DNA from: Myxacorys californica WJT36-NPBG1
GTDB lineage: Bacteria > Cyanobacteriota > Cyanobacteriia > Leptolyngbyales > Leptolyngbyaceae
Assembly (NCBI GenBank): GCA_019359315.1
Contig: JAHHHO010000003.1
Coordinates: forward strand, 1 to 64,000
Length of the DNA stretch: 64,000 nt
Direction of reading: 5' to 3'
Shown: piece after piece, positions 152 to 60,000 of the stretch
Layout: each line of letters begins with the position of its first letter
Position numbering within the stretch: position 1 is the stretch's first letter
Made by a program: the position numbers and the translations under genes
Notes under the pieces: generated by a model
The model's database searches: none
Seen by the model: the letters and a program-made list of their open reading frames with translations, nothing else
What the model was told of the DNA's origin: nothing

Positions 152-739
152 CTAGGCGAACCAAGCTTGCCATGCCGCCCAGTTTTCCACAAGTCCTGCA
201 AACTCCACGTATCCCGCCGCCCTCGGATGCGCTCCGTCATAAGCTGCAACCTCTCGCATCCAAGTATCAGACTGTTTCAGCGTAGAAACCGTTTCTAGGT
301 AGGGCACAGATAACGCTTCACATGCGATCTCCATCTGCTTTGACAGTTCCTCAATCCGGGCCATTTGCTCAGCATCCTCGATCGGAGGTGCACCAATCAT
401 CAGCACTGGAAACCGCGATTTAGCCTCAGTCAGAATCGCTCGAAGATTATCTAGCGAATGGGCGATTTCCACACGTTGCCGCCCGTTTTCCACAGTCGTG
501 TCATTTGTTCCAAACGAGAATACTAACCGCCCATCTACCTCAGATGGAAGCCGCAACATCGCCTCTTGAAGCCACCGTTGACGGAGTTGCGTGCTAATCT
601 CACGACGAATGCCTAAATTGTAGTAAGTCACCTCATGCCCGTTCTGCCAAGCGGATTGGCAAATCCTACCTGCCCAACCCAGACAGCCTGGATCGCCCGT
701 ACCATTCACAAACGACTCTCCAAAAAAGCAAACGCGCAT
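152..739 (-). CDS. SGNH/GDSL-family hydrolase
   Basis: Predicted serine esterase or lipase of the SGNH fold, 195 residues, about the usual size for a single-domain member. Block I is FGESFVNG with the likely nucleophile Ser9; the usual GDS reads GES here. Block III is FGTND (Asn as oxyanion donor) and block V is DGAHPRAAGY with Asp168 and His171. I see no signal peptide, so it is probably cytoplasmic; the substrate cannot be told. It is divergent from the DUF2811 gene, and the stretch upstream of its start is the DnaA-box cluster. Three DnaA-like 9-mers also lie within the coding sequence (183-191, 465-473, 486-494). The family call is solid, the substrate open. Confidence 0.85.
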   Translation of the reverse strand: MRVCFFGESFVNGTGDPGCLGWAGRICQSAWQNGHEVTYYNLGIRREISTQLRQRWLQEAMLRLPSEVDGRLVFSFGTNDTTVENGRQRVEIAHSLDNLRAILTEAKSRFPVLMIGAPPIEDAEQMARIEELSKQMEIACEALSVPYLETVSTLKQSDTWMREVAAYDGAHPRAAGYVEFAGLVENWAAWQAWFA

Positions 740-821
740 AGTATTCCCTAAGAAATTCTTAAATCATCATTGGACTCTGATTGGACTGGCAAAACTTTAC
801 AAAACTTTACAGTTAGATCTG

Positions 822-981
822 TTTTCCCCATAGATTCCACAGGCAATCCACAAGACTTAGATTTCTTTTCCACACCTTTTCCACACCCTGCAAAAAGTTT
901 TCCACAGGATAAGAAGATAGGAGCGGCATTCCTTCGTGATCTGTGGATAAGTTCGAGAATTTGTGTTTCCACTGTGGAAAA
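822..981. other. DnaA-box cluster, candidate replication origin (oriC)
   Basis: Five 9-mers match the DnaA-box consensus TT(A/T)TCCACA exactly. TTTTCCACA is at 866-874, 877-885 and 898-906 on the plus strand. TTATCCACA is at 942-950 and TTTTCCACA at 973-981 on the minus strand. One- or two-mismatch boxes lie at 822-830, 833-841, 844-852 and 965-973. Two more exact copies (183-191, 486-494) and a near copy (465-473) sit in the adjacent SGNH gene. A 10-bp tandem repeat AAAACTTTAC (791-810) and AT-rich sequence lie on the left and could serve for unwinding. By chance about 0.5 copies of one 9-mer would be expected in the whole window. The boxes are seen directly; origin function is inferred. Neither dnaN nor dnaA is in view, so a DnaA-titration locus is the main alternative. 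Confidence 0.7.
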
Positions 982-1296: not shown

Positions 1297-1509
1297 ATGG
1301 ATACTAACGTCAGCATTCTTGTCGAGATTCCTGAAACCCTGCACCAGTCGTTTCTCAAATTTTTGGATGGTTGCCCAGAGTGGGATCAAGACCGCGTGAT
1401 GTCGGCGGCGTTGTCATTGTTTTTGCTGCAAAACCGCATGACCAACGATCGCCAGACCGCTCGCATCTATCTAGATTCTCTGTTTAAGCGTCCTGTTGAA
1501 CAGCTTTAG
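1297..1509 (+). CDS. DUF2811 family small protein
   Basis: A 70-residue soluble protein matching the cyanobacterial DUF2811 family from its first residues (MDTNVSILVEIPETLHQ) through a helical middle (WDQDRVMSAALSLFLLQN). The function of the family is unknown to me. I chose the ATG at 1297 because GAGG at 1287-1290 sits six bases upstream and the family normally starts there; a 31-residue longer frame exists but has no such support. It lies between the DnaA-box cluster and a nuclease gene on the same strand, 48 bp before the latter, so the two may be cotranscribed. Confidence 0.8.
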   Translation: MDTNVSILVEIPETLHQSFLKFLDGCPEWDQDRVMSAALSLFLLQNRMTNDRQTARIYLDSLFKRPVEQL

Positions 1510-57067: not shown

Positions 57068-60000
57068 ATGTTCAACAAAATTCTGATTGCCAATCGAGGT
57101 GAAATTGCCTGTCGGATTATTCGCACGCTCGATCGCTTAGGGATCGCTTCTGTTGCGGTCTACTCAGAAGCAGATGCTCACGCAAAACACGTGCTCATGG
57201 CAACAGAAGCGGTGTGTATCGGTGAAGCCGCCGTGGCGAAAAGCTATTTGAACTACGATCGCATCCTAGAAGTAGCAAAGCAAACCGGGGCGGAAGCCAT
57301 TCATCCGGGCTATGGCTTCTTGAGCGAGAATGCTGAGTTTGCGGAGGCGTGTGCACGAGACAGTATTGTATTCATTGGGCCGACGCCTACTCAGTTGCGT
57401 CAGTTTGGTCTGAAGCATACTGCGCGGGAACTAGCAGAGGCGAATCAAGTGCCCCTCACGCCCGGAACGCCTTTGCTAGAAAGCTTAGAGGCAGCCCAAA
57501 CCGCCGCGATCGCAATTGGTTATCCAATCATGCTTAAAAGTACAGCAGGCGGCGGCGGGATTGGGTTGCAGGTGTGTCACACCGAACATGATCTAACAGA
57601 GGCGTTTGAGAAAGTTCAACGCTTAAGCCAAAGCAACTTCAAACAGAGCGGAGTATTTTTAGAGAAATACATTCAAACGGCTCGACACATTGAAGTGCAA
57701 ATCTTTGGAGACGGAAACGGCAATGTTGTTGCCCTCGGTGAGCGCGATTGTTCAGCACAGCGCCGCAACCAAAAAGTGATTGAAGAAACGCCTGCACCGA
57801 ATATCACTGATGAATTAAGAAAAGAACTGTCAGATGCAGCCGTGCGGCTGGGAAAAGCTGTCCATTACCAATCGGCTGGAACAGTGGAATATGTGTTTGA
57901 TGTGCAAACGCAGCAGTTTTATTTTTTAGAAGTCAATACCCGCTTGCAGGTTGAACATGGCGTTACTGAAGCCGTTAACGGAGTTGATTTAGTCGAGTGG
58001 ATGGTCAAGCAGGCATCGGGCGATCTGTTTCCCCTATCAGAGTTTCAGTATCAGCCACAAGGACACTCGATTCAGGTACGGATTTATGCTGAAGATCCAG
58101 CGAAAAATTTCCAACCGAGTTCTGGCACGTTGCATCAAGTCACGTTTCCCGACACGGTGCGCTGCGATCGCTGGATCGAGACGGGAACGGAAGTCACGCC
58201 GTACTATGATCCCCTATTAGCAAAAGTGATTGTTCACGCGGACAATCGTGAGGACGCGATCGCGCATCTCAAAACAGCGATCGACAACAGCCGCATTGAT
58301 GGCATCGAAACCAATCTGGCGTATTTGCGCCAAATTCTAGACGATTCTAGTTTCAGTCGGGGAGACCTGAGTACCCGCTTTCTAAATTCCTTTCACTATG
58401 CGCCGCTCACGATCGATGTTCTGGATGCGGGAACCTATAGCAGCATTCAAGACTATCCAGGACGGGTTGGCTATTGGAATGTAGGTGTGCCGCCGTCAGG
58501 TCCGATGGATCATCTCGCGTTTCGATTGGCAAATCGGGTGCTCGACAACCCTGAATCGACAGCAGGGTTGGAGTTTACGGTTACAGGTCCAACGTTGCGT
58601 TTCAATACCGATACCGTCATTTGTCTCACGGGTGCTGAGATGAAAGCAACGCTGAATGGTGAACCCGTACCCTTTTGGAGCGCTGTTCCGGTTCAGGCGG
58701 GAAGTACCTTGAAGCTAAAAGGCGTTCAGGGAGATGGCTATCGTACCTATTTAGCGGTCAAACATGGGTTTGATGTCCCCGATTATTTGGGGAGCAAATC
58801 GACATTTGCATTAGGCAAATTTGGCGGACATGCAGGACGAACCCTGCGTCCGGGAGATGTCCTTAAGCTGAATCAGTCGGCTGAATTGGAACACGCGGAG
58901 TCTACGCTGCCAACGGAACTGATTCCAACCTATACCAACCATTGGGAAATTGGTGTCCTCTACGGTCCTCACGGTGCGCCCGATTTCTTTACCCAAGAAG
59001 ATATCGCTCTGTTCTTCTCGACCGATTGGAAAATTCACTACAACTCAACGCGCACCGGCATTCGGTTGATTGGGCCAAAACCGAAATGGGCCCGTTCTGA
59101 CGGCGGCGAAGCTGGACTCCACCCATCTAATATTCACGATAATGCCTACGCGATCGGCACCATTGATTTCACGGGCGATATGCCGATCATCTTAGGGCTA
59201 GATGGTCCGAGTCTCGGCGGGTTTGTTTGCCCTGCCACGATCGTTCAGGCAGAACTGTGGAAAATTGGACAACTTAAACCAGGCGATACGGTTCGCTTCT
59301 ACCGTCTAACGTTTGCAGAAGCCTTGCAGCGTGAACTGGCGCAAGACCAGCAAATTGCAACGCTACAAGTCACGCCGCCAGTGCAATCTGGCGTTTCCCA
59401 AACTGTTCATTCTCCCATTCTCCATTGCATTCCTGATTCTCCTGATCACATTGGGGTCACTTATCGACAGGCAGGAGACAAGTACGTGCTGATCGAATAC
59501 GGATCTCAAATCCTCGATCTCAAACTGCGCTTTTGCGCTCATATCCTAATGGACTGGTTAATCGCCCATCACATACCGGGGATTTTGGATCTCACGCCCG
59601 GAATGCGATCGCTGCAAGTCCACTACGACAGTCGTGTGTTGTCACAACAAGCGTTGCTCGATGCTCTGATTGCTGCCGAAAACGAACTGCCCTCCGTGAT
59701 GGAAGCAGAAGTACCAACACGAATCGTACATCTACCCCTGTCCTGGGATGATGAAGCAACACAATTAGCCATTCAGAAGTACATCCAATCTGTGCGTTCT
59801 GATGCGCCTTGGTGTCCGAGCAATATTGAATTTATTCGTCGGATTAATGGGCTGGAAAGCGTCGAACAGGTGAAAGAGATTGTCTTCAGCGCCAGCTATC
59901 TGGTGATGGGGTTGGGAGATGTGTATCTCGGCGCGCCCGTTGCCACTCCACTTGATCCGCGTCAACGCTTGGTAACGACCAAATATAACCCCGCGAGAAC

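Follow-up and report, generated by a model that had tools for sequence, protein, structure and literature searches.

The question raised by this locus is whether a dense cluster of DnaA boxes near the start of the window (the 64,000-nt stretch analyzed here, bases 1-64000 of the 170-kb contig C92 in a genome of 128 contigs) represents a chromosomal origin of replication, as the first-pass annotation had proposed, or serves another purpose. From sequence comparison, the cluster (positions 183-981) is almost certainly not an origin, and it is best explained as a probable DnaA-responsive region that controls DUF2811 (1297-1509).

Exact matches to TTWTCCACA were found at eight sites in the window, compared with 1.17 ± 1.20 expected, and none of 100 shuffled sequences reached eight. 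The seven exact boxes on both strands reported by the first-pass annotation were all recovered (183, 486, 866, 877, and 898 on the plus strand, 942 and 973 on the minus strand), and its estimate of about one chance site per 64 kb agrees with the shuffles. The eighth site is isolated, at 59256 on the minus strand. The conserved core holds three tandem plus-strand boxes (866-906, starting at 866, 877, and 898) with the claimed spacings of 11 and 21 bp, followed within 942-981 by two inverted boxes on the minus strand, one 44 bp on from 898 (942-950, TTATCCACA) and the other a further 31 bp on (973-981, TTTTCCACA). The near matches mentioned earlier are also present, at 465 (ATTTCCACA) and as three degenerate plus-strand boxes 11 bp apart at 822-852 (TTTTCCCCA at 822, GATTCCACA at 833, and CAATCCACA at 844), which align in most array-bearing relatives. 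As had been noted, boxes extend into the divergent SGNH/GDSL hydrolase gene (152-739, minus strand), a neighbor detected next to the array in no genome outside the genus. The two boxes inside this ORF (183-191 and 486-494, both TTTTCCACA on the plus strand) are shared with the single other genus member and absent from the rest of the family, and the array proper is therefore taken to be 822-981. Genome-wide, there are 99 exact sites versus 65 for the reversed pattern, and only three places have at least four exact boxes: the window (seven), the dnaN origin on contig C77 (five), and a cluster on contig C53 (four).

A standard dnaA-oriC-dnaN locus lies elsewhere in this genome, which contradicts the proposal that the cluster is the chromosomal origin. 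dnaA is located at C92:168456-169778, at the far end of the window's contig and about 168 kb from the cluster, and dnaN at C77:16216-17358 has five boxes directly upstream. In the other genus member (G001), dnaA, boxes, and dnaN form one contiguous locus in which the sequences ending C92 and C77 lie next to each other, and dnaN-linked boxes in a - - / + + layout recur in most of the relatives examined. The search for a larger cluster elsewhere, for example at dnaN, that the first-pass annotation suggested yields a dnaN cluster with fewer exact boxes (five versus seven). The higher count in the window is in keeping with the cluster being an origin or a second origin, and dense boxes are indeed present, yet we regard such a role as extremely unlikely. 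The cluster adjoins neither dnaA nor dnaN and is not the only one of its kind, since the genome has two DUF2811 arrays in addition to the dnaN origin. The array goes with a gene, DUF2811 is present in some genomes as two or more copies bearing such arrays, the same array also occurs on plasmids, and inspection of the cluster did not reveal an AT-rich unwinding element. GC skew decides nothing here: the genome is split into 128 contigs, and in a complete relative (G026) the sampled skew was weak and followed no regular course, in line with published skews of many cyanobacteria (PMC7198777). The array does share with the dnaA-dnaN oriC of Synechococcus elongatus, Anabaena 7120, and Cyanothece 51142 a dense set of TTTTCCACA on two strands and pairs 11 and 21 bp apart. 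Unlike those origins, it is located away from dnaA and dnaN, is tied to DUF2811, and sometimes occurs in several copies per genome. The layout differs as well, with tandem plus-strand boxes, 44 bp, and an inverted box in the array, whereas oriC in the family has the order - -, about 90 bp, + +.

The array instead travels with DUF2811 genes. The third cluster in the genome (C53:6679-7043) precedes its second DUF2811 gene, and in 30 family loci the pair formed by DUF2811 and a downstream nuclease gene always has boxes upstream. Close relatives keep the exact box offsets 0, +11, and +32 with an inverted box at +76, and the tandem pattern occurs in 40 of 42 family genomes, compared with 0 of 42 for the reversed tandem pattern. 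Across the class, an exact box precedes the gene in 29 of the 30 best PF10929 loci. Among 68 named DUF2811 loci, the 800 bp before the gene contain an exact box in 65 and two or more in 46, versus 3 and 0, respectively, of 193 control windows; the modal tandem spacing in these loci is 21 bp. The 44-bp spacing between box 898 and the inverted box at 942 also recurs class-wide. A plus/minus pair of boxes 43-46 bp apart was found in 30 of 108 upstream regions and never in shuffles, and families with a single exact plus-strand box often retain the inverted box 44-46 bp on. The 114 tandem pairs detected in 45 dnaA-positive genomes were distributed between dnaA/dnaN (n = 48), the upstream regions of DUF2811 (n = 34), and other places (n = 32). 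Across cyanobacteria, the array lies 200-650 bp upstream of DUF2811 genes, accompanied by a promoter and frequently by an RpaB (light/redox) motif, so that boxes are both upstream of and conserved with the gene, as in a DnaA-regulated promoter. Plasmid-borne DUF2811 genes had exact boxes upstream in six of eight cases examined. Because the array follows DUF2811 through paralogues, unrelated neighborhoods, and plasmids rather than holding a chromosomal place, it is best regarded primarily as a promoter region.

Large plasmids of Acaryochloris, Nostoc, Aulosira, and Leptolyngbya (L311-L318) carry DUF2811, mostly together with a box array, and a possible explanation is that they hijack host replication control.

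Further elements flank the array. At 796-813 on the plus strand, an HLR1-like motif (TTTACAAAACTTTACAGT), the better HLR1 of the window, matches with one mismatch the consensus for the response regulator RpaB (KTTACAWW-N2-KTTACAWW; PMC13421787). HLR1 motifs with at most one mismatch occur in 34 of 97 DUF2811 upstream regions and in 1 of 97 mononucleotide shuffles of them. Between the array and the promoter is a conserved block (993-1040) comprising a degenerate minus-strand HLR1-like site (AAAGCAATGTAAC, 993-1010) and an imperfect dyad, ACGAAAAA...TTCCGT (for 1001-1040, the conserved imperfect dyad is given as ACGAAAA...TTTCGT). The C53 paralogue has a near-perfect hairpin, ACAGGGGTTAAGCCCTGT, at the dyad position. 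A sigma-70-like promoter, TTGATC-17 bp-CATTAT, is predicted at 1082-1110 on the plus strand from sequence and alignment; its -35 element in relatives is TTGACA, with a 17-bp spacer. Transcription predicted to start near 1117 would give a leader of about 180 nt before the DUF2811 start codon, for which no structured RNA match was found in Rfam, and would place the boxes approximately 100-250 bp upstream of the start.

To our knowledge, cyanobacteria are the only bacterial group in which free-living species lacking dnaA have been reported. Among 390 genomes that were at least 95% complete, dnaA was called above the curated cut-off in 372 and was missing from 18. DUF2811 is present in 370 of the 372 dnaA-positive genomes, the two exceptions (G067 and G179) being drafts. 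In the 18 genomes lacking dnaA, it is absent (n = 13), broken by internal stops (n = 2; G317 and G390), or intact (n = 3; G178, G337, and G377). This co-occurrence gives a Fisher p of about 3e-22 in a test that ignores phylogeny. In a dnaN tree, the dnaA-less genomes fall into at least seven separate lineages with dnaA-positive sisters interleaved, and the genus g96, in which dnaN was not detected, forms an eighth. DUF2811 is lost or broken in six of these eight lineages, broken in one of three genomes of genus g139, and intact in G178. The pattern is correlative and comes from only about eight lineages, and the three dnaA-less genomes with an intact copy mean that DUF2811 is not strictly tied to DnaA. 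The co-occurrence points to DUF2811 as an unrecognized partner or regulator of cyanobacterial DNA replication.

Genome reduction was considered as a cause of the co-loss and is unlikely, given that the dnaA-less genomes are 2.8-5.9 Mb in size and at least 99% complete and that 16 of the 18 keep dnaN. The other two (G172 and G361, family f32, genus g96) are near-complete genomes with no detectable match to either dnaA or dnaN, the sliding clamp gene; the missing dnaN match could be due to divergence.

Where dnaA is gone, the boxes decay. In dnaA-less G178, the array has disappeared and the promoter block and DUF2811 are conserved, while its dnaA-positive congeners have two or three exact boxes. 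The g139 survivors G337 and G377 have one exact box compared with two in their congener, again with a conserved promoter. The array thus hinges on whether a genome has DnaA, being lost in the former case and reduced in the latter. In all 16 dnaA-less genomes tested, the 1 kb preceding dnaN is free of exact boxes, as it also is in some dnaA-positive genomes, and tandem pairs occur anywhere in the genome in 2 of 18 dnaA-less versus 38 of 45 dnaA-positive genomes. This selective decay is the best computational evidence for DnaA as the array-binding protein. Given their cyanobacterial consensus, their class-conserved spacing, and the reduced or lost arrays in dnaA-less genomes, the boxes are very probably real DnaA sites.

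An operator for another protein, such as DUF2811 itself, that merely resembles DnaA boxes would account for the position of the array, which is always in front of DUF2811 genes, where a small autoregulator would fit. This is very unlikely, as the same 9-mer builds the dnaN origins, the boxes upstream of dnaN are missing in all of the dnaA-less genomes tested (as in some dnaA-positive ones), and the array of G178 vanished despite an intact DUF2811 gene. A ribbon-helix-helix fold, suggested by a strand-helix-helix pattern seen by eye, obtained an hhalign probability of 3.8% against a small, three-sequence profile. The array could alternatively be a locus that titrates or resets DnaA, similar to datA or DARS, with the proximity of DUF2811 being secondary. 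Many predicted high-affinity boxes that lie in both orientations at conserved spacings, at a distance of about 168 kb from dnaA and distal to the promoter, are compatible with this idea, and in some relatives other arrays sit past the 3' end of guaA with no evident promoter nearby. Such a locus, however, would not be expected to follow DUF2811 into different neighborhoods, including those of the second paralogue and the plasmid copies, and a pure DNA sink does not predict that the DUF2811 protein itself is lost together with dnaA. We thus consider titration improbable as the main function, though the array could also act as a DnaA titrator, with a datA-like role as a side effect.

A stronger competitor, which we rate as possible though less probable than not, is that DnaA activates DUF2811 as an effector linking initiation to another process, such as segregation, division, repair, or nucleotide supply, and that DUF2811 does not act on DnaA. 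The promoter and co-loss data fit this scenario as well as they fit feedback, other bacteria use DnaA as a transcription factor (PMC8203912, PMC11317965), and one family paralogue adjoins a PD-(D/E)XK nuclease gene. On the other hand, a gene serving a general process should be rewired rather than discarded, and 15 of 18 dnaA-less genomes have lost or broken DUF2811. Direct feedback on DnaA is preferred because the DUF2811 gene is dispensable after DnaA loss.

Two or three tandem boxes just past the 3' end of guaA were seen in several families (L123, L127, L130, L173, L174, L177, L183, and L184), and in L127 and L183 this array sits between convergent genes. These arrays are candidate titration or DARS-like sites that appear not to be tied to a promoter.

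Returning to a control region for DUF2811, the protein is best read as a small member of the DnaA pathway and is probably a feedback regulator of initiation. DnaA would bind the tandem and inverted boxes cooperatively, and its level or ATP state would set DUF2811 transcription jointly with RpaB, which would add light or redox input. With less certainty, the DUF2811 protein would in turn affect either DnaA or initiation itself, and the resulting loop may tie initiation to the photosynthetic state. For this last step, we tentatively favor negative feedback over activation, a direction of regulation that we infer. The boxes are far from the predicted start for simple repression, and neither homology nor fold suggests a mechanism for DUF2811, both of which speak against this explanation. 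The binding geometry has a precedent: TTTTCCACA is the cyanobacterial DnaA box, and domain IV of Cyanothece DnaA binds two of them separated by 2 nt but shows no clear binding to one box alone (PMC4674748). The 866/877 boxes have this same arrangement and match the 2-3 bp gap between paired boxes that is preferred by E. coli DnaA (PMC11317965).

The array resembles DnaA-regulated promoters in E. coli (for example, the purH, polA, and mutH regions) in having box pairs upstream of genes. Unlike these, it is longer, lies far upstream, typically has 21-bp pairs, is found beside the motif of a light/redox regulator, and is conserved across a whole class. With E. coli datA, DARS1, and DARS2, it shares multiple DnaA boxes with conserved spacing away from oriC; unlike them, it lies upstream of genes of a single family, which is lost alongside dnaA. 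DUF2811 would resemble SirA, YabA, and Hda only in its proposed role as a protein modulating DnaA, and differs from them in that neither sequence nor fold linked it to a solved structure.

Work on S. elongatus concluded that as-yet-unknown factors besides the DnaA ATPase control DnaA in connection with photosynthesis (PMC6478999). That DUF2811 is a class-wide DnaA regulator under DnaA and RpaB control, and is the factor sought in S. elongatus, is an idea to which we give somewhat less than even weight. A tiny, near-universal, uncharacterized protein that is lost along with dnaA and has both a box array and an RpaB motif in its promoter is a concrete candidate for DnaA control. DnaA-regulated genes are known as a kind; the class-wide array, DUF2811 as its partner gene, and their co-loss are undescribed in the literature searched, in which the cyanobacterial DnaA papers found treat oriC. 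DUF2811 was not mentioned in that literature, which covers few subscription papers, nor was wording on hypothetical proteins or DnaA boxes found in the report on dnaA loss (PMC7198777).

The neighbors named by the first-pass annotation (an SGNH hydrolase, DUF2811, and a RecB-like nuclease) include a DUF2811 assignment that is confirmed by Pfam (PF10929, E 1.8e-24; 70 aa, 1297-1509, plus strand). No related solved structure was found in the PDB by sequence or, using a low-confidence AlphaFold monomer (pLDDT 56.5), by fold, and comparison of the same model and sequence with solved structures showed no homology to the DnaA regulators SirA, YabA, and Hda. A phage source was rejected, as DUF2811 has zero occurrences in 50,697 phage records. 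Among the genomes searched, the protein occurs only in cyanobacteria, with a size of 65-78 aa, and, judged by DUF2811, Myxacorys almedinensis is the closest relative (96%). The PD-(D/E)XK (RecB/Cas4-like) nuclease gene at 1558-2352 on the plus strand adjoins this DUF2811 paralogue throughout the family, directly downstream in the 30 family loci examined (L046-L075). Small genomes of 1.5-3.7 Mb in family f2 hold between two and five copies of DUF2811, a higher count than in most larger genomes.
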